This document shows, piece after piece, positions 276-63,603 of a stretch of 64,000 nt of DNA. Position numbers and translations under genes: made by a program. Origin of the DNA: Lysobacteraceae bacterium (GTDB lineage Bacteria > Pseudomonadota > Gammaproteobacteria > Nitrococcales > AK92). The stretch's first letter is position 1. Every line of letters begins with the position of its first letter. Location of the stretch: NCBI GenBank assembly GCA_012523465.1, contig JAAYIK010000025.1, positions 62,001 through 126,000 on the forward strand. Direction: 5' to 3'. The notes below the pieces were generated by a model, which did no database searches, was not told the origin of the DNA, and was given only the letters and a program-made list of their open reading frames with translations.

Positions 276-1721
276 GTCCACGCCCAGCTTGCGCATGCGC
301 GAGCGGAGCGTGTGCGGATTGATGCCCAGCAGGCGAGCGGCGCCGGACGGTCCCTCGATGCGGCCATGGGTGCGAGCCAGTGCTGAGCGGATATGGGCGG
401 CCATGGCTTCGTCCAGGGTCGGGAAACGGCTGTTGTCGCTGCTGGATGGGGTCTGCAGGCTGTGTCCGGAAGCCGGGCCAAGCACTGTGACCGGCCCGGT
501 TGGCATGCCGAAGGCGGGCTCAAGCTGCAGGCCTTTGCCGTTGCCCAGGATGGCTGCCCGCTCGATCACAGCAGCCAGTTCGCGCACGTTACCTGGCCAG
601 GCGTAGCTGCGCAGCAGCTCGATGTCCCCGGCAGTTGGCAGCTGCAGCGGCAAGCCGAGCTTGACAGCGGCGCGGCGGGCGAAGTGCTCGGCCAGGGCGG
701 GAATGTCGGACTGGCGCTCGCGCAGCGGGGGAATCGCAATCGGAAACACCGCGATTCGATACCAGAGATCCTGGCGAAAGCTGCCGTTGGCCACCATGGC
801 CGCCAGATCGCGATGGGTGGCGGCCACGACCCGCACGTCGACCTGCAGCGGCTCTTCGCCACCCACGCGGTACAGGGTGCCGTCCTGCAGCACCCGCAGC
901 AGCCTCACCTGCGCGGCCGGAGGTAGCTCTCCGATCTCGTCGAGAAACAGGGTGCCGCGGTCAGCGCGCTCGAACCAGCCCCTGTGCTGGCCGGCGGCGC
1001 CAGTGAAGCTGCCGCGTTCGTGACCGAACAGTTCGGAGTCGATCAGGTCGGGCGGGATGGCACCGCAATTGACGCGAATGAAAGGTCCCTGGCTGCGCGG
1101 CGAGCGCTCGTGCAGGGTGCGGGCGATGATTTCCTTGCCGGAGCCGGTCTCGCCCAGCAGCAGCACCGTGGCATCGGAGCGCGCCACCAGGTTGACGCGT
1201 TCCATCACGCCTTTCAGGCAGCCATCGGCTCCGACCACCTCGTCGCCATCCAGGCGGCGTCCGAACCGCGCCAGCAGCATTTCACGGTCGGCTTCCGCGC
1301 GCGCCCGCTGCGTCGCCGGCTCGCGCCAACGGAGTTCGTTGGCTAGGCCGACTGCCAGCGGCTCCAGCAGGGAGGCCAGCAAGGCGGCATCGGCAGCGCC
1401 GAAATCGGCTCCGGCATGGGCGTTCAGCACGGCGATGCCATCGTGTCGGTTGTCCGGATCGCGCAGGTAGCCGATGAGCGCACCGGACGATCCGTGCCGG
1501 ACGGCGAGTGGCCGCAGATCGTCTGGCCACGGTTCGCCGACTCGCAGGCGCCGTACCGGATGGCGTTGCAGCGAGAGCAGAAGCCGGTCGCAGACGGCCT
1601 GGGCGCAGCGCATGCGCAGGTCGGCGGTGGCAGGCTCGGTCGTCGCTAGCGTCTCGAGCGCTTGGCGCGGCCGATCAAGGTGCACGATCGTCAGCGCAGC
1701 CAGGGGCAGCGACTGGCGCAC
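237..1721 (-). CDS. sigma54-dependent transcriptional activator (GAF-like sensor, AAA+, Fis HTH)
   Basis: A 494-residue enhancer-binding protein. Residues 1-~155 look like a degenerate GAF-type sensor with no phospho-acceptor Asp. The central AAA+ domain has Walker A GETGSGKE, the sigma54-contact loop written GSFTGA instead of GAFTGA, and Walker [10 protein letters not shown] Fis-type helix-turn-helix ends the protein ([17 protein letters not shown]). It should open sigma54 promoters in response to an unknown signal. The GTG start is uncertain: the frame stays open 57 bases further upstream and that stretch (LAKALDNIAAA) reads like more GAF domain, but no standard start codon occurs before the stop near 1779. 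A neighbouring target is not evident. Confidence 0.85.
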
Positions 1722-41129: not shown

Positions 41130-42536
<1,407 letters not shown>

Positions 42537-48857: not shown

Positions 48858-49007
48858 TTAAAGCCTCACCTGCTCCTCCATCCCCTTTGGAGCCTGGCGT
48901 GGCGCCCAAGGCGCCGCGCTCATTTTTTCGAACTGCCGCGCACCTTGCCGCTTAATCGAAGCGCTGCCAGCGCCGCTTTTCTCCTAGGGTGAAGCTCGCG
49001 CTGCCGA

Positions 49008-49028
49008 GGCGGAAGCGCTGCTTCCTCC
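49008..49028. promoter_or_regulatory. candidate LafK operator upstream of fliD: GGCGGAAG-N5-CTTCCTCC
   Basis: A 21-bp near-perfect palindrome centred about 119 bases before the predicted fliD start, normal for an enhancer of a sigma54 activator. The same sequence (17 of 21 positions) stands upstream of the flgB promoter at 60674-60694. Confidence 0.6.
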
Positions 49029-49032
49029 CGGC

Positions 49033-49058
49033 GGCTTCCGCCTTGCCCAGCGGAAGCC
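49033..49058. promoter_or_regulatory. second GGAAG/CTTCC palindrome at the fliD enhancer
   Basis: GGCTTCCGC, 8-nt spacer, GCGGAAGCC: the same half-sites as at 49008 but in reversed order and wider spacing. Centred about 91 bases before the predicted start. Together the two palindromes give four half-sites in 51 bases, suggesting cooperative binding. Confidence 0.5.
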
Positions 49059-49110
49059 ACTTTTCTGCCGGACAGGGCCGAAAGGCGCACGGCAAAGCGC
49101 TTTTCCCGGC

Positions 49111-49125
49111 TGGCATCGAATTTGC
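49111..49125 (+). promoter_or_regulatory. sigma54 (-24/-12) promoter of the fliD operon
   Basis: TGGCATC-N4-TTGC with GG and GC separated by 10 bases, a very good match to the sigma54 consensus. Predicted start near 49137, 18 bases before the fliD ATG. It should drive fliD-fliS-fliT-fliK-fliL-sigma28-motAB. Confidence 0.75.
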
Positions 49126-49154
49126 TTTCACGAGAGCGAAAGGATCGTATAGCG

Positions 49155-50492
49155 ATGATCACCATAGACACCGATTACATCCAGCAGATGTCGATGCAGC
49201 TGGCCAACTACGAGGTCCAGGGCGCGCTGGCGCGCCTGGAGCGCAACGAGGCCAGCTACAAGGCACAGCTGGATGCGCTGGGTAAGCTGCGCAGCGCCTT
49301 GACCACCTTCAGCAGCGAGCTGCGCAAGCTGAAGAGCGGCGGCTCCAGCATGCTGGTGAATAGTGCCCGCTTCAGCCAGGAGGGGTACGCCACCGCCACG
49401 GTCAGCCCGAAGGCCAGCGCCGGCCGTTACCAGTTCTTCGTCGAGCAGCTGGCCAGCGCACACCAGATCGCGCTCGCTGGCAGCCAGCTGCAAAGCCAGG
49501 CCGAAGACGGCAAGACCCTCACCATTGCCCTGGGAACCGAGGACAGCAAGCAGTTCCAGCTCTCCATCACCCTGGACAGCGGGTTGTATGACGAGAACGG
49601 GGAGCTGAGCCTGCAGCGCCTGGCGGCGGCGATCAACGATCACGCCGACAACAAGGGCATCAAGGCTGCCGTGCTGCGCAGCGGCGGCGACACCTATTTG
49701 CTGCTCACCAGCGAAGAGAGCGGTGCCGACAACCGGATCTGGATCGACGGGGACGCCGCGGCCGGCGTGGAGACGAGGGAGCTGAGTCCGGCGCAGGACG
49801 CCATTGTCCATGCCGGTAGCGGCGCCGAGCGGATCGAGCTCAGAAGCAGCAGCAACCGCTTTGACAACATCATCGACGGCGTCAGCATCACCTTCAGCAA
49901 GGTCTACGCCGAGGGCGAGGTTCCGCTGGTGGTGGACATCGCCCGCGACGATGACGCCATCCGCAACAAGGTGCAGAGCTTCGTCGACGCCTTCAACGCG
50001 CTCAAGAGCAGCTTTGACAGCCTGACCGCCAGCGGCGGGGAGAACAGCGCGCGGGGGGGGCTGGCTGGCGACTCCAGCATCCGCGCCATCGAGAACCAGC
50101 TCAATGCCCTGCTGCGCGCCGAGTACGGCACTGAAAAGAACAGACTGGCGGCCTACGGCATCGTCGCCGACCGCAACGGCCGGCTGACCATCGACAGCTC
50201 GCGCCTCGAGGCTGCCATCGCCGAGGATCCAGCAGCCTTCGATCAGCTATTTACCGGCAAGGACAACCTGCTTGATTCCATCGACAAGCTGGTGTCCCGC
50301 TACACCAGCAGCGCCAACGGCATGCTGACCAATCGCATGGACTCGCTGAACCAGGGCCTGCGGCGCCTGGACCGTGAGTTCGAAGCCATCCAGCGGCAGT
50401 ACGACAACTACTACAACCGCTACCTCAGGCAATTCACGGCCATGATGCAGGCCATGCAGGCCATTCAGCAAACGCACGGGTTGTTCGGATGA
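49155..50492 (+). CDS. fliD: filament cap protein FliD (LafB-like)
   Basis: 445 residues. The N-terminal coiled coil (IQQMSMQLANYEVQGALARLERNEASYKAQLDALGKLRSAL) and the C-terminal GMLTNRMDSLNQGLRRLDREFEAIQRQYDNYYNRYLRQFTAM stretch are typical. It caps the growing filament and folds flagellin. The extracellular middle domain is diverged as usual. I use ATG 49155, since an upstream TTG would place the gene start inside its own promoter. First gene of the late operon. Confidence 0.93.
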   Translation: MITIDTDYIQQMSMQLANYEVQGALARLERNEASYKAQLDALGKLRSALTTFSSELRKLKSGGSSMLVNSARFSQEGYATATVSPKASAGRYQFFVEQLASAHQIALAGSQLQSQAEDGKTLTIALGTEDSKQFQLSITLDSGLYDENGELSLQRLAAAINDHADNKGIKAAVLRSGGDTYLLLTSEESGADNRIWIDGDAAAGVETRELSPAQDAIVHAGSGAERIELRSSSNRFDNIIDGVSITFSKVYAEGEVPLVVDIARDDDAIRNKVQSFVDAFNALKSSFDSLTASGGENSARGGLAGDSSIRAIENQLNALLRAEYGTEKNRLAAYGIVADRNGRLTIDSSRLEAAIAEDPAAFDQLFTGKDNLLDSIDKLVSRYTSSANGMLTNRMDSLNQGLRRLDREFEAIQRQYDNYYNRYLRQFTAMMQAMQAIQQTHGLFG

Positions 50493-50893
50493 GCGGACAT
50501 TTGTACGGCGAAAGCTACGACAGCTACCGCAAGATCGACCTGGAGGCGCGGGCTGCTTCCGCGTCTCCCTACGAGCTGGTGCTGATCCTCTTCGACGGCC
50601 TGCTCGACGAGTTGGAGCGCGCGCGCGGGCACATCGAGAACAAGCGCTACCAGCAGAAGGGCGCGTCCCTGGAGAAGTGCATCAACATACTCAATGGGCT
50701 GAGCAGCGCCCTGGACTTCGAGAACGGCGGCGAGCTGGTGCAGGACTTGGCGCGTCTGTACGACTACTGCATCTACCGCTTGTCCGACATCAGCGTCTCG
50801 CTGTCGCTGGAGGATCTGGACCACGTGGTGCAGATACTGAAGGTGCTGCGCGAAGGTTGGGAGGGCGTTCATGCCGCGCGGCGTGGCGAGTGA
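50489..50893 (+). CDS. fliS: flagellin chaperone FliS (LafC-like)
   Basis: 134 residues, four-helix FliS: SYRKIDLEARAASASPYELVLILFDGLLDELERARGHI is the family start. It binds flagellin in the cytoplasm until export. It overlaps fliD by 4 bases and the next gene by 23. Confidence 0.94.
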   Translation: MSGHLYGESYDSYRKIDLEARAASASPYELVLILFDGLLDELERARGHIENKRYQQKGASLEKCINILNGLSSALDFENGGELVQDLARLYDYCIYRLSDISVSLSLEDLDHVVQILKVLREGWEGVHAARRGE

Positions 50894-51200
50894 TCGGCGG
50901 CGGCTGCTGCAGCTGCACGCGCAGCTGGCGCAGGCCCTGCGACAGGACGACTGGGAGGCCGTCATCAAGGTCGACCAGGCCATCCGCGAGCTGCTGCAGG
51001 AGCTGGCAACGCGGCCGCAGCTTGACGACGGCGTGCTGGAAGCCAAGGCACGGCTGAAGAAGCTGCACGCCCAGGCGCTGCTGCGTTGCGCGCAGGCGTG
51101 CGAGCGCTTGTGGGAACAACTGCTCGACTATCTGGATCACGCTGAAGCCAGGGTGGCGTATCAGCAGGTCAGTCAGCTTGGCCTAGAGGAGCGGGGATGA
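50871..51200 (+). CDS. fliT: FliT/LafD-like small flagellar protein
   Basis: 109 residues, all helical, no strong motif. Position directly after fliS and the size fit FliT (LafD in lateral systems), an export chaperone for the cap. It overlaps fliS by 23 bases and the fliK start by 4. An internal GTG at 50883 is a possible alternative start. Called mainly from context. Confidence 0.7.
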   Translation: MPRGVASDRRRLLQLHAQLAQALRQDDWEAVIKVDQAIRELLQELATRPQLDDGVLEAKARLKKLHAQALLRCAQACERLWEQLLDYLDHAEARVAYQQVSQLGLEERG

Positions 51201-52366
51201 TTCGTTTTTTGCCTGTTGCGCATCAGGAGGTTGCGTCAACAGATACCGAGGTGTTGTCTGCGTTGCCCGGCAAGCCGATTGCAGCTGAAGGCTTGCCGGG
51301 CCTTTCTATTGAGAGTGGACAACACGCGGCGAGCAACGATTTTCCGGGCGAGCTCAAAGAGCTGCTGGAAGCGAAACTGCAGCAGGCGGCTGCAGGTGCT
51401 GAGCCCACGGCGGAGGAGCCGGAGCCGGGGAACCAGGGCGGGGAGACCGATAGGCCGACGCTGATCCTGCTCGCCGAGTCCTGGCTGCAGGGCATGCAGA
51501 AGCAGCAGCAGGCGGCCGTTTCGGCGCGGCCCGCGGCGCTGGTGCCGAGGGCGGATGAGCGTGGCGGTAGCGAGGCCTTACCGCAGCTGTCCGGGCTGCA
51601 ACCGCCAGAGCAGCTGGCAGCGATTTCGATGCCGGATTCCGCGGACGAGAGGAGGGCGGAAAGCGCGCTGCAACCGGAGGTGGCCGTTGCGCCGCAGTCG
51701 CGGTACGAGGCCATGTTGCGCCTTGACGCTGTCGCCAGCGCCAATGCCGGCGACGACCGGGGCACGCTGCGGCAAAGCCCTGCGCCTGCAGCTGCGTTGG
51801 CATTGACTGCGGCGACCGCTGGCTTGGGCGGCGAGCTCGTTGCCGAAGCCGTCTCCGGCCAGGAGAGCACCGCGGCCGCTGCGGCGCGCGCCAATGGCAC
51901 GGAGGCAACGCTCGGCCCTGGAGAAAGGCAGGTGGCCGAGACAGTGGTCCGCCTGCAGCCGCCCGCGGCGCGCTGGGGCGAGCAAATGTTGCAGGCCCTG
52001 CGCCAGCACGTGCAGACCAGCCTGCAGCAAAACGTCCAGCAGGCGCACATCCGGCTCGACCCGCCTGAGTTGGGGAGCCTCGAGATCCAGATCAGCCATG
52101 AGGCTGGCCGCCTGAGCGTGCAGATCGGCGCCGCCCAGGCCGAAGTGGCGCGGCTGCTGCTGCAGCACAGCGAGCGGCTGCGGCAGGAGTTGCTGGACCA
52201 CAACTTCCCGCAGGTGGAGGTGCAGGTCTTCGCCGACGGGGGCGAGCGCCAGCAGCGCCACCATGCCCAGCCGTCCGACGAGGAGCTGCCGCTGGCGGCA
52301 GCCGTGCACGACGGCGCTAAGGCCGCGAGCACGGAGGACGCCAGCGACGTCCTGGTGACGGTTTGA
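51197..52366 (+). CDS. fliK: flagellar hook-length control protein FliK (LafE-like)
   Basis: 389 residues: a long, low-complexity Ala/Pro/Gln-rich ruler (1-~265), then the conserved C-terminal hook domain (~265-360) with RLDPPELGSLEIQISHEAGRLSVQIGA and VARLLLQHSERLRQEL. It measures hook length and signals FlhB to switch substrates. Sequence of the ruler is not conserved between species, as expected. Confidence 0.9.
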   Translation: MIRFLPVAHQEVASTDTEVLSALPGKPIAAEGLPGLSIESGQHAASNDFPGELKELLEAKLQQAAAGAEPTAEEPEPGNQGGETDRPTLILLAESWLQGMQKQQQAAVSARPAALVPRADERGGSEALPQLSGLQPPEQLAAISMPDSADERRAESALQPEVAVAPQSRYEAMLRLDAVASANAGDDRGTLRQSPAPAAALALTAATAGLGGELVAEAVSGQESTAAAAARANGTEATLGPGERQVAETVVRLQPPAARWGEQMLQALRQHVQTSLQQNVQQAHIRLDPPELGSLEIQISHEAGRLSVQIGAAQAEVARLLLQHSERLRQELLDHNFPQVEVQVFADGGERQQRHHAQPSDEELPLAAAVHDGAKAASTEDASDVLVTV

Positions 52367-52408
52367 AGAGGCTGACAAGACTAGCGTTTTTACTGGCTTT
52401 AAGACGAC

Positions 52409-52894
52409 ATGACAACGACTCGGCTGATCATCCTGTTGCTCGTGCTCAATCTGCTCGTCGTATCGAGCGGCGTGGTCGTCAACTACCTGATGCTGCGGCC
52501 CCTGGCCCAGGCCGCGGCCTGGGCCGAGTCGGAGCGGGCCGAGCCGCCCGTGGTGCAGCGTGAGTACGACGTGGTGCAGCGTGAGTACGAGTTCTACCCG
52601 GTGGAGAAGGTCATCGTCAGCCTGCGTGAAGGTGGGCGGGAGCGCTATTTCGTGCTCGATCTGGCGCTGCTGGTCGAGGCGGGCGAGCGCAGCGAGCAGC
52701 TGAAGAAGGCGGAGCCGCTGGTGCGCAGTTCGGTGGTCAGCTACCTCTCCACCTACAGGTTCGAGGAGCTGCGCGCCTTGCCAGTCAGCGAGCTGCAGCA
52801 CCGTCTGGAGCAGGCGCTGTTCGCCGACTTCGCGGAGCGGAAGGCGCAGGCGCCGTTTCTGCAGGTGCTGGTCAGCAAGTTGATCGTTCAATAA
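52409..52894 (+). CDS. fliL: FliL-like stator-associated protein (LafF)
   Basis: 161 residues: one N-terminal membrane helix (~6-28), then a periplasmic FliL domain (VEKVIVSLREGGRERYFVLDLALLVEA... LRALPVSELQHRLEQALFADFAE). FliL rings surround the stator and raise torque. A 21-bp tandem duplication at 52550-52591 repeats VVQREYD/VVQREYE in the juxtamembrane linker. The gap from fliK is 42 bases and shows no separate promoter. Confidence 0.87.
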   Translation: MTTTRLIILLLVLNLLVVSSGVVVNYLMLRPLAQAAAWAESERAEPPVVQREYDVVQREYEFYPVEKVIVSLREGGRERYFVLDLALLVEAGERSEQLKKAEPLVRSSVVSYLSTYRFEELRALPVSELQHRLEQALFADFAERKAQAPFLQVLVSKLIVQ

Positions 52895-52904
52895 GAGCGT
52901 GACC

Positions 52905-53630
52905 ATGAAGGCGATACTTCCAGCCGACGACAGGGCTGCGGCGCGGCCGCACCCGGCGGTCCTGCCGGCCGACGAGCAGCGCTGGGTGATGCAGTACCTG
53001 CCGCTGGTCAAGCGCATCGTCAATCAGCTGTCGCTGCAGGCCAATCAGGTCCTGGACCGCGAGGACATGGAGCAGATCGGGCTGATGGGGTTGCTCGAGG
53101 GCCTGCGCCGTTACGGCGAACCGGACGAGCACTTTGCCCGTTTCGCCGCGCTGCGCATCCGCGGGGCCATCCTCGACGAGCTGCGACGGCAGGACTGGCG
53201 GCCGCGGCAGATCCGCCAGCAGGTGCACAAGTTCCGCGATGCGGTTCGCAAGCTCAGCTTGCAGCTGGGACGGCCGGCTACCGAGGAGGAAATTCAGCAG
53301 TACACCGGCCTGACCGCGGAGGAGTATCAGAGCATCCTGATGGCCGACACCGCGGAGGCGATAGAGAGCCTCGACGAGCTGCTGCAGGAGGGCCTGGAGG
53401 CCGCCGACGACAGTCAGGGCGTCGAGGAGCGGGTGGTGAGCCAGAAGCTCTTGGAGCAGGCTCTTAGCCGGCTGGACGAGCGCGAGCGGCTGGTGCTGAC
53501 GCTGTACTACCAGTACGAGCTGAGCCTCAAGGAGATCGCACTGGTGCTGGAGGTCAGTGACGCCAGGGTCTGCCAGATCAGCAAGCAGGCGTTGAGCAAA
53601 GCCGCACGTTTTCTAACCAGGGAAAGATAG
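52905..53630 (+). CDS. lafS: flagellar sigma28 factor (LafS / FliA-like)
   Basis: 241 residues. Region 2 lies at ~35-110 (YLPLVKRIVNQL..DREDMEQIGLMGLLEGLRRYGE...RFAALRIRGAILDELRRQDW), and the region 4 HTH is at the end (ALSRLDERERLVLTLYYQYELSLKEIALVLEVSDARVCQISKQAL). It should transcribe the filament and possibly the motor and receptor genes of this locus, under FlgM control. ATG 52905 and GTG 52899 are both possible. Confidence 0.93.
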   Translation: MKAILPADDRAAARPHPAVLPADEQRWVMQYLPLVKRIVNQLSLQANQVLDREDMEQIGLMGLLEGLRRYGEPDEHFARFAALRIRGAILDELRRQDWRPRQIRQQVHKFRDAVRKLSLQLGRPATEEEIQQYTGLTAEEYQSILMADTAEAIESLDELLQEGLEAADDSQGVEERVVSQKLLEQALSRLDERERLVLTLYYQYELSLKEIALVLEVSDARVCQISKQALSKAARFLTRER

Positions 53631-53640
53631 GGCGAGCGTC

Positions 53641-54513
53641 ATGCAGAAGATTTTCGGCGCATTGGTGATCGTGGCCTGCGTGCTCGGCGGCTATGTCATG
53701 GCCAATGGGGAGCTGCGCATGCTCTGGCAGCCGGCGGAGATCATCATCATCGTCGGCGCCGCCCTGGGCAGCCTGATCATCGGCAACCCGCGGGAAGTAC
53801 TGGTGGAGATGTGGGCCCAGGTCAAGGGCGTGTTCGTCCACAAGCGCCGCGGTGAGGAGTTCCAGCGCCAGCTGTTGATGCTGCTGTACGAGCTGCTGGA
53901 GATGGTGCAGATCGGCGGCCTGCGGGTGCTGGACGCCCACATCGACGAGCCGCAAGAGAGCGAGCTGTTCGCGCGCTATCCTCTGATCCTGCAGGAGAAG
54001 AACCTGATGGCCTTTATCGCCGACAACTTCCGGCTGATGGCCATGGGCAAGATCACCCAGCACGAGCTGGACGGGTTCTTGGAGCAGGAGCTGGAAGCCA
54101 TGGAAAACACTCTGCTGCAGCCCGCCCGCTCGCTGCACAAAGTAGGCGAGGCCATGCCCGGTTTCGGCATCCTGGCCGCCATCATGGGCATCATCATCAC
54201 CATGGGCAAGATCGACGGCTCGCTGGCCGAGATTGGCACCAGCGTGGCGGCAGCGCTGGTGGGCACCTTCCTGGGCATCTTCTTCTGCTACTGCCTGCTG
54301 CAGCCGCTCAGCAACGCCATGAGCCTGCGGGTCAAGACCGAGATGTCGGCGCTGGAGTGCGTGCGCACCGTGCTGGTCGCCCACCTGGCCGGCAAGCCCA
54401 CCCTGCTGGCCGTGGACGCTGGCCGCAAGCTCATCGAGCAGGACGTCAAGCCGGCCTTCAGCCGGCTGGAGGCCTGGGTCAACCAGTATGAGGAAGAAAG
54501 GAACGCCGCATGA
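53641..54513 (+). CDS. motA: stator protein MotA (LafT)
   Basis: 290 residues, four membrane helices. Cytoplasmic loop residues and the helix-3 segment PGFGILAAIMGIIITMGKIDGSLAEIGTSVAAALVGTFLGIFFCYCLLQPL are typical of MotA. It forms the ion channel of the stator with MotB. It overlaps motB by 4 bases. Confidence 0.95.
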   Translation: MQKIFGALVIVACVLGGYVMANGELRMLWQPAEIIIIVGAALGSLIIGNPREVLVEMWAQVKGVFVHKRRGEEFQRQLLMLLYELLEMVQIGGLRVLDAHIDEPQESELFARYPLILQEKNLMAFIADNFRLMAMGKITQHELDGFLEQELEAMENTLLQPARSLHKVGEAMPGFGILAAIMGIIITMGKIDGSLAEIGTSVAAALVGTFLGIFFCYCLLQPLSNAMSLRVKTEMSALECVRTVLVAHLAGKPTLLAVDAGRKLIEQDVKPAFSRLEAWVNQYEEERNAA

Positions 54514-55427
54514 GCGCGCGGCGCGAGCTTTGGAAGCGTAGCGAGACCACCACCATCGTCAGGCGACGGGGTGGTCGACGCGGGGGCGAGGAGCAGGTCA
54601 GCGGCGCCTGGAAGGTAGCTTTCGCCGACTTCACCCTGGCCATGATGGCCCTGTTCATGGTGTTGTGGATCGTGCAGCCGCAGGGCAAGCCGCGCGAATC
54701 CCTGTACCCGGAAAGCGCTACCGATTCGGTGCTGGAGGGCGGTGCCGGGGTGTTCGACAGCAGCAGCCGCACGCCGCTTGACCTGGAGGGCGTGCAGCCG
54801 GTGGTGATCCGCGATCCCAGTCTGCTGACCGAATGGGATGCGGACTGGGAAGGCCGGCGCCGCTTCTTCGACTCGGTGACCGAGCTGCAGGAGCTGGCGG
54901 CGCTGGTGCGGCAGATGGCGGAAGAGGCTGATGCGCTCGCCAACATCGAGATCGACATCGTGCCGCAGGGTCTGCGGATTCTGATCAAGGACGACGACGA
55001 ACGTTACATGTTCGAGCGCGGCAGCGCCGTCCTTGATCCGCACTTCGAGCGGCTGCTGCAGGCGCTGGCGGGCATCCTCAGGCGGGTGGAGAACAAGCTC
55101 ATACTTAGCGGCCACACCGACTCGACGCCATATCGGCACACTTCCGGCTACGACAACTGGAACCTCTCCGGCGACAGGGCGCTGCGGGCGCGCAGTGTCA
55201 TGGTGCAAGCCGGTCTGCCGCGCGACAGCATCCTCCAGGTCGCCGCCCAGGCCGATGTCATGCCGCTACGCCCCGAAGACCCCGAGCACGGTGCCAACCG
55301 CCGGGTCGAAATCCTGCTACTCACCCGTAATGCGGAACGGCTGTACCGCGAGTTGTTCGGTGAAACCTACCTGCAGGTCCACTATTCCCGCGCCGGCGCC
55401 GAGCTGCGCAGCGGCGACGGTGGCTAA
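54510..55427 (+). CDS. motB: stator protein MotB (LafU)
   Basis: 305 residues: one membrane helix with the ion-carrying Asp in AFADFTLAMMALFMVLWIV (residue ~38), then an OmpA-like peptidoglycan-binding domain (~165-270: LSGHTDSTPYRHTSGYDNWNLSGDRALRAR). The basic N-terminus is unusually Arg/Gly-rich (RRRGGRRGG). Ion preference cannot be decided from this alone, though overall likeness is to H+-driven MotB. Last gene of the late operon. A CACCGCCTG/CAGGCGGTG inverted repeat at 55493-55523 lies in the 200-base gap to lafZ and may end the transcript. Confidence 0.94.
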   Translation: MSARRELWKRSETTTIVRRRGGRRGGEEQVSGAWKVAFADFTLAMMALFMVLWIVQPQGKPRESLYPESATDSVLEGGAGVFDSSSRTPLDLEGVQPVVIRDPSLLTEWDADWEGRRRFFDSVTELQELAALVRQMAEEADALANIEIDIVPQGLRILIKDDDERYMFERGSAVLDPHFERLLQALAGILRRVENKLILSGHTDSTPYRHTSGYDNWNLSGDRALRARSVMVQAGLPRDSILQVAAQADVMPLRPEDPEHGANRRVEILLLTRNAERLYRELFGETYLQVHYSRAGAELRSGDGG

Positions 55428-55627
55428 GCCGCAAGCCGCAGTCTGGTTCTGCGCCACGCGCCTTATTCACACGGAGACTGGAGAAAATCCCGCACCGCCT
55501 GCCGCAGCCTGCGACAGGCGGTGGGTAAGTGGTGGCTGCGGCACTGGGCCGATGCAGCCAAGGGGCCTCCGGAAGAAGGGAGACAGGGGATTCGCCGACC
55601 CGGCGCCGGGCCGGCTAAGGGAATGGG

Positions 55628-56329
55628 TCAGTCCAGGTACTTGATGGTTGCTAGCTCTTCCATGTTGCGGCGCATGACCAGTTCCTGCGGCTGTCCCGGC
55701 TTGCCGGGCTGGCCCACGTAGAGAATGTAGGCCTTGCCGCCGTTGACCTCGGTGCTAACCAGCTTGACCTGGGAGAATGCCAGCGAACCATAGCCCAGAG
55801 CCAGCAGTCCCAGGGACAGGCCCCCCAGGCTCATCAGGGCGGCGGCCGACAGGCGGCGCAGTTTGGCGGCGACCGTCGCGAACAACTGGCGGGCCAGCCA
55901 GGGCTTCTTCGGCGCCAGCGGCTCGTGGTTGTTTCGGGGCTCGGGCACGCTGATCGCGGCGAAATAGGCCGGGTTGAACAAATAGCCACGGCGCGGCACG
56001 GTCTGGATGATGTTGCGTTGCTGGTCGTCGCCAAGGATCTGGCGCAGGGTGTGGATCTGCTGGTTCAGGCTACCCTGACCGACCACCCGCCCAGGCCAGC
56101 CGCGCTCCAGCAGCTCTTCGCGCGAGACCAGCTGGCCCGGCTCGCGCAGCAGGCGTTCCAGTACCCGGCTGCCGGAAAAGCCGAGCTCGACAATCTCCTC
56201 CTTTCCTTGCTGAATCAGTTTCAGCTGATAAAAGTTCGGGTAAAAGATCGCATGGCAGCCGGGCTTGCCAGTCTGCAGGATGAAGCTGGCCGCTTCCGTG
56301 CCATGTTGGCTGTGCATGCTCATCGTCAT
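55628..56329 (-). CDS. ToxR-like membrane-anchored winged-helix regulator (LafZ-like)
   Basis: 233 residues: an OmpR/PhoB-type winged helix at ~30-120 (SGSRVLERLLREPGQLVSREELLERGWPGR, NQQIHTLRQILGD, IIQTVPRRGYLF), a membrane helix near 165-185, then a ~48-residue periplasmic tail. Like ToxR or CadC it binds DNA from the membrane and senses the periplasm directly. Flag-2 loci carry a transmembrane regulator of this kind (LafZ) near flagellin, which is the best guide here. It probably regulates flagellin or motor genes, but targets are unknown. Confidence 0.8.
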   Translation of the reverse strand: MTMSMHSQHGTEAASFILQTGKPGCHAIFYPNFYQLKLIQQGKEEIVELGFSGSRVLERLLREPGQLVSREELLERGWPGRVVGQGSLNQQIHTLRQILGDDQQRNIIQTVPRRGYLFNPAYFAAISVPEPRNNHEPLAPKKPWLARQLFATVAAKLRRLSAAALMSLGGLSLGLLALGYGSLAFSQVKLVSTEVNGGKAYILYVGQPGKPGQPQELVMRRNMEELATIKYLD

Positions 56330-56610
56330 CTTCTGCGCTTTCTCCAGAAATGCCCCGCTGCTGCCTGCCGCTGCGAGCGGTTGTTGTTGTTCTTGTTGGC
56401 AGCAAACCCCTCTTCACCCCCGCCATCCGGAAGCCCGGGCGCCGGGGGCGCTACACTATCCATCTTCGGCAAGCCGCCGCTGCAGGTATATCAGCGCATG
56501 ATGATTCTTGGCTGGGATTCCTTCCGCTTGAGCAAAGAGGCAGTCTGAGGTCGCCTAGGACAAATCCTAGGTGGACTGCATGAGGTGCTGCTCGAAGCTA
56601 ATTTGATACG
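56330..56610. other. spacer between lafZ-like gene and flagellin terminator
   Basis: About 280 bases with no supported gene. It must contain the promoter of the lafZ-like gene. A lone CTTCCGC half-site occurs at 56521-56527, but no full palindrome and no -24/-12 element were found. Confidence 0.5.
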
Positions 56611-56642
56611 GATAAAAGAACGCCCCTGCGGGGCAGGGGCGT
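56611..56642 (-). terminator. rho-independent terminator of the flagellin gene
   Basis: On the minus strand ACGCCCCTGC, a 3-nt CCC loop, GCAGGGGCGT, then TCTTTTATC: a 10-bp GC stem followed by a U-rich tail, about 50 bases after the flagellin stop. Confidence 0.92.
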
Positions 56643-56691
56643 GAGGGAAAGCGGGCCGCAAGGGGGAACGGCCCGACCTGGAGGCTCTGTA

Positions 56692-57528
56692 TTAGCCGAG
56701 CAGGCCCATGATGAGGCTGGGCATCTGGGAGGCCTGGCGCAGCATGGAGATGCCGGACTGCAGCAGCATCGAGTTCTTGCTCAGGTTGGCGCTCTCCAGG
56801 GCGAAGTCGGCGTCCATGATGCGGCCCTTGGCCATCTCGGTATTGTCGGTCATGTTGCGCAGGTTGTTGCTGGTGTGAGTCAGGCGGTTGATATAGGCGC
56901 CGAACTCTGCACGCAGAGCGCCAATGTCATCCAGTGCGCTCTCGAAATCGTCCATTGCAGTACGCGCACCGTCTGCGTCGCTCAGATCGGCGCTAGAAAA
57001 GTTCCCAATAGTGGAGATCAGATTCGTCAGTGTTCCGGAAACATCGATGTCCAGGGTCTCTGCGCTGCTGGCACCGATCTGCAACGAGACCTGGTTTTCG
57101 AACTTGCCACCGTTAAAGAGGGCCTCGCCTGCATACTTGGTGTTATCAAGAATGTTGTTCAGCTCCTCCGTCAACTGATCGACTTCGGCTTGCAGAGCGG
57201 TACGGTCGGCATCGCCGTTCGTGTCGCTGGCCGCCTGGGTGGCGAGGTCCTTCATGCGCAGGACGATGTCGGTCATCTCCTTGAAGGCGCCCTCGGCGGT
57301 CTGCAGCAACGAGATGCCGTCGCTGGTGTTGCGGATAGCGACCGTCATACCGCGAATGTTTGCGTTCAGGCGTGTAGCGATCTGCAGACCGGCGGCATCG
57401 TCGGCAGCGGAGTTGATGCGCAGCCCCGTGCCAAGGCGCTGCTGGGTGGTGGACAGGGCGGCGTTGAACCTGTTCAGGCTGTTTTGAGTAACAAGCGCAG
57501 CATAGTTCGTGTGGATCGACAGAGACAT
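56692..57528 (-). CDS. lafA: flagellin (LafA-like)
   Basis: 278 residues, a short flagellin. The conserved D0/D1 N-terminus (MSLSIHTNYAALVTQNSLNRFNAALSTTQQRLGTGLRINSAADDAAGLQIATRLNANIRGM) and C-terminus (TDNTEMAKGRIMDADFALESANLSKNSMLLQSGISML) are intact, while the surface domain is only ~90 residues. One flagellin gene is seen in the locus. The minus-strand sequence ACCGAGAA at 57562-57555 resembles the sigma28 -10 box (6 of 8) 27 bases upstream, but no matching -35 was found. Confidence 0.95.
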   Translation of the reverse strand: MSLSIHTNYAALVTQNSLNRFNAALSTTQQRLGTGLRINSAADDAAGLQIATRLNANIRGMTVAIRNTSDGISLLQTAEGAFKEMTDIVLRMKDLATQAASDTNGDADRTALQAEVDQLTEELNNILDNTKYAGEALFNGGKFENQVSLQIGASSAETLDIDVSGTLTNLISTIGNFSSADLSDADGARTAMDDFESALDDIGALRAEFGAYINRLTHTSNNLRNMTDNTEMAKGRIMDADFALESANLSKNSMLLQSGISMLRQASQMPSLIMGLLG

Positions 57529-58047
57529 AGTTCTTGTTCCTTTCTAGCCGTGGATTCTCGGTTTGTACTGCAGGCTCAATGAGCCAGCTAAAGGTGGAAA
57601 GCGACAACTCGACGCGGATGGTTAAGCCCGTTTTTTGAGAAATCTGTCGCAAACTGAGCGAATCGTCCGCGAGCTCAAATGAAGTGCGCTTGTGACCGAT
57701 CTTTTACTCCCTGCTGCCTTGCCGTCCCGTGTTGGCGGTGGCATGTGGGAATGGCTTTCAGCGGATTCCTAGGTCCATCACGTCGACTCCGAAGGGCTTT
57801 TAAGTCTTTCCTGATATTCGCGAAGTGCGAACTGTTTCACAATTCTACCGGCGGTCGTCGCCTTGGCGGGGACGTCGAGCTCCCTCTCTCGCGCTGCTGG
57901 CGGCCGTCCCGGCGTGGAATGCCGCAGCGCCAGTGCACAACATGTCGCAGGCAAAGGATGGGCCAGAACCGGTCAGGCGCAGCCCTGGCTGCCGTTCCTT
58001 GCGACTGCCTCTGTGACGACATCCAGCGATAGGTAGAGGAGGACAGG
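57529..58047. promoter_or_regulatory. divergent control region between flagellin and chemoreceptor genes
   Basis: 519 bases without a credible gene. Elements seen: a possible sigma28 -10 for flagellin (57555-57562) and the palindrome GGCTCAATGAGCC at 57573-57585, 45-57 bases before the flagellin ATG. No clear promoter for the chemoreceptor was recognised, and a small open frame at 57679-58032 lacks any family likeness. Confidence 0.45.
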
Positions 58048-59907
58048 ATGGGCATCAGTGCCAGGATCACGGCTGTGCTCGCGCTTGCCATTTTTTCCGT
58101 GCTGCTGGTTATCGGCTGGATGACGGCGGCGGCCCAGGACAGGTTGCTGACGCGCATGGTCGAGGAGCGGATTCGCACTAAGCACATCACCGTGCAGGGC
58201 ATGCTCGAGCAGGTCAGCGTACAGGCGCTGGGCATTGCGCTATCGACCGCCGCAGCGCCCGGCGTGGTGGCGGCCGCGCAGCGGCAGGACAGGGAGCTGG
58301 CGCACGCGGAGCTGGTGCCGGTCTATGAGACGCTGCGCGAGCGGTTCGGCGTGACGGTGCTGCACCTGCGGGCGCCGGCGGATACTTCGCTGCTGCGCGC
58401 GCAAAGCCCGGAAAAGTTCGGTGACCGGACCCGCCGCCGCGCGATCCTGGATACCGCCGAGCGCGCTGCGCCGCAAACCGGTTTCGACCGCGCCATCTTC
58501 GGCATGGGCATGCGCGGCTGGGCGCCGGTGACGGCAGGGCAGGACGTGGTCGGGGTCATGGAAGTCAACATCGCCTTCACCGAGCAGCTGCTGCAGCGGA
58601 TCAAGGCCATGATCGGCAGCGACATCCTGGTGTACGCAGCCGATTCCGACGAGCCGCGGCTGGTCGCCGCAACCATGGCCGCCGCACTGGAGCCGCCGGC
58701 ATGGATGTTCCAGCAGGCGGCGACGCGGCTGAGCGACGTGCATGGCGAGGGCCACCAGGCCTACGCCATGTTCCCCATCCGTAGCTACGAGGGGGAGCTG
58801 CTGGCGACCATCGCCATCGTCGAGGATATGTCGGGATTCGCGGCCCTGATTCGCGCTCAGACCCTGCGCACCGTCGTGGTGCTCTTACTGGCCGGGATGG
58901 TGCTGGTGGCGGTGGTTGCCCTGATGCTGTCGCGCGGCGTGGCGCGGCCGGTACGGAGGGTGGTGGCGGCGGCCAATGCGCTGGCGGCGGGTGACTTCAC
59001 GGCACGAATCGCCGTGCGCGGCCAGGACGAAATCGGCCAGCTGCTAGCGGCCATGCGTACCATGGCGGAAAGGCTGTCCACGGTAATAGGCGAGGTGCGC
59101 ATTACGGCCACGGCGCTCTCGGCGGCTTCGAACGAGGTCTCGGCCACTGCCCAGGGCATGAGCCAGGCTTCCGCCGAGCAGGCGGACAGCGTCGACCGGA
59201 CGGCGCATGCCATGGCTCAGCTGTCCGACACCATCAAGCGCACCGCCGACAATGCCAATGCGACCGGCAGCGTGGCCGAGCAGGCGGCGCAGGCAGCGGA
59301 CAGGGGCGGCGCGGTGGTCAAGGAAACGGTGGCGGCGATGCAGGCGATTGCCGAGAAGATCTCGATCATCGACGACATCGCCTACCAGACCAACCTGCTG
59401 GCGCTGAACGCATCTATCGAGGCGGCGCGCGCGGGCGAGCACGGACGCGGCTTTGCGGTGGTGGCGGCGGAGGTGCGCAAGCTGGCTGAGCGCTGTCGGG
59501 CGGCGGCGGCCGAGATCGGGGAAGTTGCCGCCGGCAGCGTGGATCGAGCGGAACTGGCGGGCCGGCTGCTGGACGAGATCGTTCCGGCCATCCGGCAAAC
59601 CGCCGGGCTGGTGCGGGAAATCGTCGCCGCCTCGACCAAGCAGAGCACCGATGTGGCGCGGATCGACGACGCCATGGAGCAGCTCAACCGGATCGCCCAC
59701 CAGAATGCTGCTTCCTCCGAGCAGCTGGCGGCGACGGCGCAAGAAATGCGCGAACGCAGCGAGCGGCTGGGGCAGCTGATGGCCTTCTTCCGGGTGGCGG
59801 AGAAAGCGGACTCGACTGCTGCGGCCGCGGAGACGACCGCGGCGCAGGCCGCGACAGCAGGTGAAGACGGCTGCGCCGAGCGGGACGAGCGGCAGCTTGA
59901 GGCTTGA
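58048..59907 (+). CDS. methyl-accepting chemotaxis protein
   Basis: 619 residues: membrane helix ~9-28, a large periplasmic Cache-like sensor (~30-270), second helix ~272-295, HAMP (~296-350), and the signalling domain with the conserved hairpin [48 protein letters not shown]. No C-terminal CheR-docking pentapeptide is present; the tail is Ala-rich. A GGAGGA site precedes the ATG. Its place inside the flagellar locus suggests it serves this motility system, but no cheA, cheW or cheY is in the window. Ligand unknown. Confidence 0.93.
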
Positions 59908-59965
59908 GGCAGGCCCGCTGCATCCCTTGCTGATGGAGGCGTGCGGAGACGGATTGCGTCCGGTC

Positions 59966-60775
59966 TCAAAACACGCTGCTCACTACCCCAGGCGCTATGA
60001 CCTTAGCGTCTATCACCTTGTTGCTGCTGGTGTTGCGGACCCGGATCAGGTCGCCGATCTGGCCGTCGGCAAGGGCCTCGCCCATGGTGGAGGCTTGAAT
60101 GCCGTCGCGGCTGGCGACGATTTTGACCGGCTGGCCGCGCTGCACGGCCGGGGGCTGGTCCAGCAGGGACGGCGTGATCAGCTGCCCGGGGCGGATGCGT
60201 CGCTTGGCGACTAGGCCGATGACGTCGTCAGGCCGGGTGTAGTAGCCGCGGCGCGCCCTGGTCACATCGTGGGGCTGCAGGGCGAGATCGGCGACGCTCA
60301 AGCGCTGGCCGCGTTCGATGACTGTATCCGCATGCAGTAGGGGCAGCAGGATCCGGACCTGGGCACTGGCATCGAGCTCCCAGCCGCCGTCGGCGACAGG
60401 GCAGCGCAGCCGGAAGCGCTGACGCTCCTGCAGCACGCCGTCGCCGGTTTGCAGCTGCAGTGGCTGCGGACAGGGGCGCAGGCTACGCGCCTGGCTCGGC
60501 AGCTGCAGCTCGAAGGCGAAATCCATCTCTTGCCAGCTGCGCTGGGCGGCTTCCCGCTGCAAGGCGTCAGTCAGATACCGGTCAATGGCGGCCCGGGCCT
60601 GCTGCTCGAGCGTGGCGGCGCGCGCGGAAGCGGGCAACGGCGCGGCAAGCGCGATTCCCACCGCGAACAGCAAGGCGGAAGCGAAACTTCCGCCTGTCTG
60701 CCGATGCCGTTTCCTCTTCACGCCGTCGCCGCCGCGACCAATCCTGTCTCCATCATGTAAGCGATTGGAAAACAT
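59966..60775 (-). CDS. flgA: P-ring assembly chaperone FlgA
   Basis: About 269 residues from ATG 60775 or 251 from GTG 60721; the latter gives a more typical signal peptide (KRKRHRQTGG then a hydrophobic core ending PASARA). The C-terminal SAF domain is clear: ARRGYYTRPDDVIGLVAKRRIRPGQLITPSLLDQPPAVQRGQPVKIVASRDGIQASTMGEALADGQIGDLIRVRN. FlgA helps build the periplasmic P ring. Its first codons contain the GGCGGAAG-N5-CTTCCGCC palindrome shared with the fliD enhancer. Confidence 0.9.
   Translation of the reverse strand: MFSNRLHDGDRIGRGGDGVKRKRHRQTGGSFASALLFAVGIALAAPLPASARAATLEQQARAAIDRYLTDALQREAAQRSWQEMDFAFELQLPSQARSLRPCPQPLQLQTGDGVLQERQRFRLRCPVADGGWELDASAQVRILLPLLHADTVIERGQRLSVADLALQPHDVTRARRGYYTRPDDVIGLVAKRRIRPGQLITPSLLDQPPAVQRGQPVKIVASRDGIQASTMGEALADGQIGDLIRVRNTSSNKVIDAKVIAPGVVSSVF
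60674..60694. promoter_or_regulatory. candidate LafK operator upstream of flgB: GGCGGAAG-N5-CTTCCGCC
   Basis: A perfect 8+5+8 palindrome that lies within the signal-peptide codons of flgA, centred about 142 bases before the predicted flgB start. It matches the fliD site at 17 of 21 positions. Being palindromic inside a coding region, it is probably kept for a DNA-level function. Confidence 0.6.
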
Positions 60776-60799: not shown

Positions 60800-60814
60800 G
60801 GGCACGCTTTGTGC
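60800..60814 (+). promoter_or_regulatory. sigma54 (-24/-12) promoter of the flgB operon
   Basis: GGGCACG-N4-GTGC, GG to GC spacing 10, in the flgA-flgB divergent gap. Predicted start near 60826, 50 bases before flgB. It should drive flgBCDEF and beyond. Confidence 0.75.
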
Positions 60815-60875
60815 ATGAAACGTCGGCAGGTTGCGCGGCGCCAGCAGGCCGCGAGCCAGTCGAAGGTAATGCGAG

Positions 60876-61232
60876 ATGAGTATACGGATTGATTCGCTAT
60901 TGAGCCTCCATGCGCAGGCGCTGGAGCTGCGGGTCAAGCGCAGCGAGATCCTGGCGGCCAACCTCGCCAATGCGGACACGCCGGGTTACCAGGCGAAGGA
61001 CATCGACTTCGCCGCCGAGATGCGGAGGCTGCAGGCGGGTGAAAGCCTGGATTCCGGCCTTGAACCGCGGCTGCTCTATCGCGTGCCCAGCCAGCCCTCG
61101 CAGGACGGCAACACGGTGGAGCTGAGCGTCGAGCAGGCGGAATTCTCCCGCAACGCCATGGATTTCCAGACCAGCCTAACCTTCCTGAGCATGCAAGTCC
61201 GTGGACTGAAGCAAGCGATCGAGGGGCGTTAA
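60876..61232 (+). CDS. flgB: flagellar proximal rod protein FlgB
   Basis: 118 residues, with the rod motif ANLANADTPGYQAKDIDF near residue 30 and a C-terminal helix (FSRNAMDFQTSLTFLSMQVRGLKQAIEG). First gene of the rod-hook operon. GAAGG before ATG. Ends 3 bases before flgC. Confidence 0.95.
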   Translation: MSIRIDSLLSLHAQALELRVKRSEILAANLANADTPGYQAKDIDFAAEMRRLQAGESLDSGLEPRLLYRVPSQPSQDGNTVELSVEQAEFSRNAMDFQTSLTFLSMQVRGLKQAIEGR

Positions 61233-61235
61233 GCG

Positions 61236-61664
61236 ATGTCGTTCGATTCCATTTACCGCATCGCCGGATCGGCCCTGAATGCCCAGACCGTGCGGCTGAA
61301 CACGGTGGCAAGTAACCTGGCCAACGCCGAGTCGGCAGCCGATAACCCGGAGAACGCTTACCGGGCGCGTAAGCCGGTGTTCGCCGCCATCTACAGCAAC
61401 GGCTCGCTGACCGGTGGTACCCGACTGGAAGGGGCGCGGGTGCAGGTGCTGGACGTGGTGAGCGCCGGACGCGAGCCGCAGCGCCGCTACGAACCGGGCA
61501 ATCCGCTGGCCGACCAGGACGGCTATGTCTACTACCCCGACGTCAACGTGATCGAGGAAATGGCCGACATGATGTCGGCGAGCCGCAGCTTCGAGACTAA
61601 CGTCGAGGTGCTGAACCGGGTCAAGAGCATGCAGAGCAGTCTGCTGCGGTTGGGAGAGCTGTGA
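61236..61664 (+). CDS. flgC: flagellar proximal rod protein FlgC
   Basis: 142 residues. N-terminal rod motif ASNLANAESAADNPENAYRARKPVF and the C-terminal NVIEEMADMMSASRSFETNVEVLNRVKSM are standard. Stop overlaps flgD by 4 bases. Confidence 0.95.
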   Translation: MSFDSIYRIAGSALNAQTVRLNTVASNLANAESAADNPENAYRARKPVFAAIYSNGSLTGGTRLEGARVQVLDVVSAGREPQRRYEPGNPLADQDGYVYYPDVNVIEEMADMMSASRSFETNVEVLNRVKSMQSSLLRLGEL

Positions 61665-62365
61665 TGACGGCCGTCTACAACAACAGTCATGCCACGGGCG
61701 TGACGCCAAACACTAGCGGCGCCGATGCCCCCATGCGGGCGGTGAGCCTGAGTGAGGCCAGTGAGCTGGAGAACAACTTCCTCACCCTGCTGGTGGCGCA
61801 GATCCAGAACCAGGATCCGACCAATCCCGTCGACAGCACCGAGTACCTGCAGCAATACGCCACCATGTCGCAGGTCCGCAGCATGGAGAACATGGCGCTG
61901 CTGGCCCAGAGCAACCTGGTGCTGCTGGACAACCTGCAAACCCTGACGGCCGCCAACCTGGTCGGGCAGAACGTCACGGTGACGGCCAGCGCGGTGGACC
62001 TCGGTAGCGAGAAGGTGAGCGGACAGGTGAAGCTGCAGCACCCGGCGGCCAAGACCGTGCTGTACCTGACCGATGCGCTGGGCAAGCGCGTCGAGGTGCA
62101 GCTGGGACCACAGGCGGCGGGCACCGTGAGCTTCACCGTGGATCCGGTGGCGCTGGGGCTGGCGCCGGGCCGCTATGAGATCGCGGTGGAATCGGACATC
62201 GGCGAGCGGCCGCGGGTGGAGCTGACCGGGCAGGTGCGCCGGGTCCGGGTGAGCGCCGAGGGGCCGGTGCTGGATGTGGCCGGCGTGGGTGCGGTGCCCT
62301 TCTACAACATCGTCGAATTCGGCCGCGCTGACGGCGGGACGGACGCCTTCGCCAGGTACTTCTGA
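61661..62365 (+). CDS. flgD: hook-capping scaffold protein FlgD
   Basis: 234 residues. The conserved N-terminal region ELENNFLTLLVAQIQNQDPTNPVDSTEYLQQYATMSQVRSMENM is followed by the FlgD Ig-like and tudor-like domains. It caps the growing hook and is itself exported. Gap to flgE is 50 bases. Confidence 0.95.
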   Translation: MMTAVYNNSHATGVTPNTSGADAPMRAVSLSEASELENNFLTLLVAQIQNQDPTNPVDSTEYLQQYATMSQVRSMENMALLAQSNLVLLDNLQTLTAANLVGQNVTVTASAVDLGSEKVSGQVKLQHPAAKTVLYLTDALGKRVEVQLGPQAAGTVSFTVDPVALGLAPGRYEIAVESDIGERPRVELTGQVRRVRVSAEGPVLDVAGVGAVPFYNIVEFGRADGGTDAFARYF

Positions 62366-62415
62366 GCCTGCACAGTCGGCGGGATCTGCAAGATTCTGAG
62401 GATGAGGGACGCGAG

Positions 62416-63603
62416 ATGAGCTTCGACATCGCCCTGACCGGCCTGAGAGCGGTCAACGAGCAACTGAACACCATCAGCCACAACATCGCCAACAACGGCA
62501 CGGTTGGCTTCAAGTCGTCGCGGGTGGACTTCGCCAGCATCTATGCCGACGCCCAGCCGATGGGGGTGGAGGTGGTCGGCAAGACGCAGAGCATCACCCT
62601 GGGCGGCGCGCTGACCTCGACCAACCGCAGTCTGGACCTGGCCATCTCTGGTGGCGGCTTTTTCATCGTCCGCGGCAGCAGCGGCGATGTCAGCTACACC
62701 CGCGCCGGTGTGTTCGGCCTGGACAAGGACAATTACATCGTCAACAGCCAAGGCCAACGTCTGCAGGGCTATCCTACCGACAGCAGTGGCAACATCCAGG
62801 CCGGCTCGGTCACCGACCTGCGGCTGCGCTCCGCCAACCTGCCGGCCAAGGCGACCGACTCGCTGGAATTCGTCGCCAACCTCAACGCCGACGAAGATGT
62901 GGTGACGGCCGGTCCTTTCGATCCCGCCAACCCGGCCACTTACAACTCGACCTACACCACCCAGGTCTTCGACTCGCTGGGGCGGGAGCATGCCTTGACA
63001 CAGTACTTCGTCAAGACTAACGACAACGAATGGCAAGTGCATTACTACGTAGATGGGGTGGCGGTGGGCGGCCCTCATACGCTGACGTTCAATAGTGATG
63101 GCGTCCTCGACACGGGCCACACCCTGGCGCTGAACTTCACACCCTTGGGCGGCGCCTCGGCCATGAACATCGACGTGGACTATTCCGGTACCACCCAGTT
63201 CGGCGCTGGCTTTGCCGTCACCACCAACCGCGCCTCGGGCTATGCCGCCGGCGAGCAGACCGGCATCGTGGTGGAAGAGGACGGTCGCGTCTTCGTCAGC
63301 TACAGCAATGGCCAGCGCTTGCTGCAGGGGCAGGTGGCGCTCGCCACCTTCGCCAATCCCAATGGGCTCAAGAACGTCAGCGGCACGGCCTGGGTGGAGA
63401 CCGAGGCCTCTGGCGTGGCGCTGATCGGCTCGCCCGGTATCGGCCAGTTCGGCATCATCAATGCCGGTGCGCTGGAGAACTCCAACGTCGACCTGACCCA
63501 GCAGCTGGTGCTGCTGATGGAAGGGCAGCGCAACTACCAGGCCAACACCAAGGTCATCGCCACCGAGAAAGAGCTGACGCAAATCCTGTTCAGCGCAGTC
63601 TAG
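62416..63603 (+). CDS. flgE: flagellar hook protein FlgE
   Basis: 395 residues. N-terminus MSFDIALTGLRAVNEQLNTISHNIANNGTVGFKSSRVDFA and C-terminus LENSNVDLTQQLVLLMEGQRNYQANTKVIATEKELTQILFS frame a middle hook domain (GGFFIVR ... YTRAGVFGLDKDNYIVNSQGQRLQGYP). Standard length for a hook subunit. Confidence 0.96.
   Translation: MSFDIALTGLRAVNEQLNTISHNIANNGTVGFKSSRVDFASIYADAQPMGVEVVGKTQSITLGGALTSTNRSLDLAISGGGFFIVRGSSGDVSYTRAGVFGLDKDNYIVNSQGQRLQGYPTDSSGNIQAGSVTDLRLRSANLPAKATDSLEFVANLNADEDVVTAGPFDPANPATYNSTYTTQVFDSLGREHALTQYFVKTNDNEWQVHYYVDGVAVGGPHTLTFNSDGVLDTGHTLALNFTPLGGASAMNIDVDYSGTTQFGAGFAVTTNRASGYAAGEQTGIVVEEDGRVFVSYSNGQRLLQGQVALATFANPNGLKNVSGTAWVETEASGVALIGSPGIGQFGIINAGALENSNVDLTQQLVLLMEGQRNYQANTKVIATEKELTQILFSAV

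Follow-up and report, generated by a model that had tools for sequence, protein, structure and literature searches.

Palindromic boxes with the core GGAAR-N5-YTTCC and half-sites CGGAAR lie upstream of the two sigma-54 promoters that precede the fliD and flgB operons of this lateral-type flagellar system, and very probably serve as enhancers of its class II operons to which dimers of the activator LafK bind. A preliminary description of this DNA had proposed the palindrome as the LafK recognition sequence. Comparative genomics supports that proposal, through the rarity of the boxes, their recurrence in relatives, their spacing and their link to the presence of lafK.

In Vibrio and Aeromonas, LafK acts as the switch for swarming flagella. 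Fis-type HTH dimers such as NtrC recognise inverted repeats whose two half-sites are separated by roughly one turn of the helix. In a lafK mutant of A. hydrophila the activity of the lateral flgB promoter fell from 970 to 20 Miller units and that of the fliM promoter from 247 to 22 (PMC5013049); a review describes the fliM operon of V. parahaemolyticus as LafK-independent (PMC3930126), and RpoN of the same species binds the flgB2 promoter by EMSA (PMC9817140). LafK dependence or RpoN sites are reported without a LafK recognition sequence in PMC5013049, PMC3930126, PMC6993521 and PMC9817140. The preliminary description knew of no published consensus, and none was found in the open-access texts searched or read; the consensus is probably new.

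Palindromic sites and promoters in the window

The window is the whole 64-kb stretch of DNA that was analysed. Its relevant features are given below; G002 is a genome of another genus in the same family.

41130..42536, + strand: lafK, encoding a sigma-54 activator and presumed box binder, with an AAA+ domain at 153-391 (PF00158) and a Fis-type HTH at 423-458 (PF02954)
48896..48920, + strand: terminator-like hairpin with T-run after flgN, upstream of the fliD boxes
49008..49028, + strand: distal putative LafK box of the fliD promoter, GGCGGAAGCGCTGCTTCCTCC, with 1 mismatch in one half-site
49050..49068, + strand: proximal putative LafK box of the fliD promoter, GCGGAAGCCACTTTTCTGC, placed 41 bp after the distal box
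49111..49126, + strand: sigma-54 (-24/-12) promoter of the fliD operon, TGGCATCGAATTTGCT, a consensus match and conserved block relative to G002
49155..55427, + strand: fliD-fliS-fliT-fliK-fliL-lafS-motA-motB, presumed operon driven from 49111 (from ORFs)
59966..60769, - strand: flgA, divergent, exact start codon uncertain; its first codons contain the flgB box
60674..60694, + strand: putative LafK box of the flgB promoter, GGCGGAAGCGAAACTTCCGCC, within the 5' coding end of divergent flgA
60800..60815, + strand: sigma-54 (-24/-12) promoter of the flgB operon, GGGCACGCTTTGTGCA, a consensus match and conserved block relative to G002
60876..63603, + strand: flgB-flgC-flgD-flgE, start of the hook/rod operon (from ORFs and homology)

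The two 21-bp sites of the preliminary description, at 49008-49028 and 60674-60694, were confirmed in their letters and are identical at 17/21 positions, and the good -24/-12 promoters noted after both of them are indeed consensus matches. The second fliD site (49050-49068) had been overlooked. The distances given earlier, 119 bases for fliD and 142 for flgB, hold from site centre to predicted transcription start; measured from the site to the -24 element they are 102 and 125 bp. The flgB site consists of two perfectly inverted 8-bp repeats around a 5-base spacer, and individual sites are palindromic on their own, a dyad symmetry that fits an HTH dimer; the consensus matrix itself was computed with symmetry imposed.

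The fliD boxes occupy a separate, non-coding control region downstream of the flgN hairpin. The gene order of the operon that follows is kept in relatives (tblastn), and LafS matches FliA/WhiG. Within the window, no box was found upstream of fliM or lafK. At the start of the window, a stretch at 516-1187 (- strand) resembles a second sigma-54 activator and is 50% identical to part of LafK.

Genome-wide counts were made by pattern searches. The pattern GGCGGAAG-N5-CTTCC occurs in the 3.0-Mb genome at the two 21-bp sites only (reversed control 0), and the three occurrences of CGGAA-N7-TTC in the window are exactly the two fliD boxes and the flgB box. The longer pattern GCGGAAR-N5-YTTCCGC has its sole perfect match in the genome at the flgB site; with one mismatch there are 5 matches, 2 of them the fliD sites, and close to the remaining 3 neither a flagellar gene nor a good sigma-54 promoter was seen. 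Random scatter of the motif, which the preliminary description regarded as counting against LafK recognition, was thus not seen in the scans with GGCGGAAG-N5-CTTCC and GCGGAAR-N5-YTTCCGC. The short core GGAAG-N5-CTTCC is not enriched, being present at 3 places in the genome vs 4 in the control, the third place (C1:96273) having no flagellar gene among its surrounding ORFs; the case therefore rests on length, position and conservation. Allowing up to two mismatches gave 108 matches vs 127 in the reversed control, so that a wider regulon is not visible at this stringency.

Recurrence and spacing in other lateral systems

In G002 two boxes precede fliD, one at 143 bp and a weaker one 42 bp closer to the gene; the box before flgB, at 202 bp, is perfect, and the 4.8-Mb genome holds no other perfect match. 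Boxes and -24/-12 elements stand out as conserved blocks in alignments of the window with G002. A phylum-wide sample of 398 genomes was searched using lateral FliG as query, a better bait than LafK, searches with which gave mostly polar FleR/FlrC-like proteins, and 11 other genomes with a lateral-type cluster were obtained. From this sample, a box precedes flgB in four genomes of family f15, four of family f18 (flag-2 gene order) and one of family f21; each lateral flgB region of 37 further f21 genomes has one as well. Where its upstream region is readable, fliD has a box too, with two boxes in three f15 genomes and one in G301. The distal fliD box is kept in G002 and f15, and the second follows the first by 40-42 bp in G002, G355, G116 and G204. 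E. coli strain 10153 (flag-2) carries a box before flgB and before fliD; flgB relatives are present in 1265/5426 complete E. coli genomes. The expectation that the motif would recur before the same genes in relatives is thus borne out for flgB and fliD in G002, f15 and E. coli, and for flgB also in f18 and f21.

Taken over the lateral promoter regions (f1, f15, f18, f21, E. coli, f34 and G351), the box is found in 56/62, with 1.2 expected from shuffles; many of the 62 are related f21 genomes, so the independent evidence is nearer five families. In flgB regions of other, polar-type systems it was found in 0/20 (shuffles 0.4). The six lateral regions without the N5 box comprise four of f34, which have a 6-base-spacer form, and two of the G351 cluster, which lacks lafK. 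All four f34 genomes (L249, L250, L251, G268) carry two tandem 6-base-spacer palindromes upstream of the lateral flgB, with centres 21 bp apart, although in the recognition helix their LafK does not differ from that of the 5-base-spacer families.

Boxes were also seen at other places. A perfect box in the E. coli 10153 flag-2 locus (L254:17159) precedes a hypothetical gene, QMG89_RS01325, beside a glycosyltransferase gene, and this may be a further LafK target. Family f18 has additional boxes within flgE (G427 L193, G337 L195), before flgD (G316 L207) and before flgN/flgM (G427, G337).

Box centres precede the predicted start by 74 to 142 bp in all N5-type regions, a distance at which enhancers function. 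The distance from box to promoter is constant within groups while that from promoter to gene varies. From flgB box to promoter it is 124-125 bp in the window, G002 and f15, 70 bp in four f18 genomes, and in f21 mostly 58 bp, otherwise 57-59, 68 or 79-80 bp; one f21 locus (L219) contains the V. parahaemolyticus flgB2 RpoN site letter for letter, 58 bp after a box. The two fliD boxes of the window, G002 and f15 lie 101-102 and 59-61 bp from their promoter. Compared between families, the box-to-promoter distances follow a period of 11.05 bp (R 0.81 and p 0.00015 with 14 non-redundant values; p 0.0002 with f1 and f15 merged; p 0.018 for the five distance classes alone), these p-values being indicative, as they assume uniform random placement and the period was chosen between 9.8 and 11.6 bp. 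We read the steps of about 11 bp, one DNA turn, as keeping the same helix face towards the promoter.

LafK and alternative readings of the boxes

In the window, lafK stands between fliM and fliE, and its product is 67% identical to LafK of G002. E. coli LafK and the other lateral LafK proteins, from 43 clusters in all, group in a single clade (local support 0.977) separate from FleR/FlrC-like proteins, and their recognition helix reads RALRY (once RGLRY) vs RTLRY in the latter. A lafK of this clade is encoded in the same system as the boxes, 43/44 genomes giving a match, and each LafK-bearing lateral cluster examined has a box, in the 6-base-spacer form in f34. The box is absent where lafK is absent, in the single case available: in the lateral-type cluster of G351 fliM adjoins fliE, with no lafK between them, the genome contained nothing that matched LafK at E 1e-84, and its flgB and fliD lacked both the box and a -24/-12 element (L208, L196, L209). 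NCBIfam searches of LafK returned no LafK model among their matches, the best being FlbD, far below its cut-off. The first 150 residues of LafK (41130-41580) are receiver-like and, by eye, seem to be without the usual phosphate-accepting aspartate.

The boxes could instead be enhancers bound by another protein, either a LafZ-like regulator or a different sigma-54 activator, which we consider unlikely. The genome encodes about ten sigma-54 activators, several besides LafK among them, and LafK specificity rests on association. The other candidate, at 55628-56329 on the - strand, is a winged-helix regulator with an OmpR-type domain that distantly resembles the regulator at the LafZ position of E. 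coli flag-2 (41% over 76 residues); such a gene is found in the window, G002, G116, G204, G444, G403 and E. coli flag-2. It was, however, not found at E 0.01 in the stretches from G301, G268, G427, G337 and G355, all of them box-bearing, some of which cover the system partly. Moreover, sigma-54 promoters require an AAA+ activator, and LafK is the one found inside each box-bearing cluster in which the fliM-fliE region was read. The lack of both boxes and lafK in G351 and their absence from the other flgB promoters likewise argue for LafK.

Two further readings are both very improbable. The flgB box falls within the first, signal-peptide codons of divergent flgA in nearly all genomes, and might be a by-product of FlgA protein conservation, with the fliD match a coincidence; but the box takes a different codon position, and encodes different residues, from one family to the next (for the window GGSFAS, for E. 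coli RKFYFL), which places the constraint on the DNA, the same box stands before fliD in non-coding DNA, and the number of box-bearing regions far exceeds the shuffle expectation. These observations contradict FlgA conservation as the cause. The palindromes might also be RNA hairpins, acting as terminators or RNA control elements, given that the flgB site is a perfect inverted repeat and that part of the proximal fliD box falls within a terminator-like stem at 49033-49058. Apart from this stem no T-run is seen at the repeats, however, and their distance is fixed relative to the promoter, not the gene; since they lie upstream of the promoters, neither the fliD nor the flgB transcript includes them. 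The palindromes had no match in Rfam, and neither the terminator nor the hairpin reading is supported.

Binding of the boxes by LafK would work as follows. Its Fis-type HTH dimer would recognise the pair of GGAAR half-sites, which are spaced by about a turn of the helix, and LafK would assemble its AAA+ ring. DNA looping would then let it open the sigma-54 polymerase at the -24/-12 promoters of fliD, served by two boxes, and flgB, served by one, and so would switch on the class II operons for rod and hook, filament cap, the sigma-28 factor LafS and the motor.

Relation to known systems and significance

The NtrC enhancer, TGCACC-N5-GGTGCA, lies upstream of a -24/-12 promoter, often as paired sites, and its binder is a Fis-type HTH dimer. 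The boxes share with it two 6-bp inverted half-sites, the 5-base spacer and the position upstream of such a promoter, but differ in the half-site (CGGAAR instead of TGCACC), the target genes and the regulator, and they do not qualify as NtrC binding sites by their half-sites. FleR, FlrC and FleQ of polar flagella are likewise sigma-54 activators of flagellar class II/III operons, and the relatives closest to LafK outside its own clade are FleR/FlrC-like proteins; they differ in belonging to another clade, in reading RTLRY in place of RALRY, and in the lack of boxes from the sampled flgB regions of polar-type systems. The lateral or flag-2 flagella of Vibrio, Aeromonas and E. coli 042 share the fliM-lafK-fliEFGHIJ order, the LafK clade, a sigma-54 flgB promoter and the box.

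For a broader reading we see about an even chance: that LafK boxes are a system-specific code of lateral flagella across the sampled Gammaproteobacteria, moved relative to the promoter only by whole turns of about 11 bp, leaving a natural record of the helical repeat that sigma-54 enhancer loops experience in vivo, with f34 having shifted to a 6-base spacer and paired boxes 21 bp apart. The consensus and its spacing rules would let LafK targets be listed from sequence and would help to judge which flag-2 loci keep intact control. They would also allow testing of how polar and lateral regulators stay apart, and the spacing classes would open the helical phasing of bacterial enhancers to direct tests.
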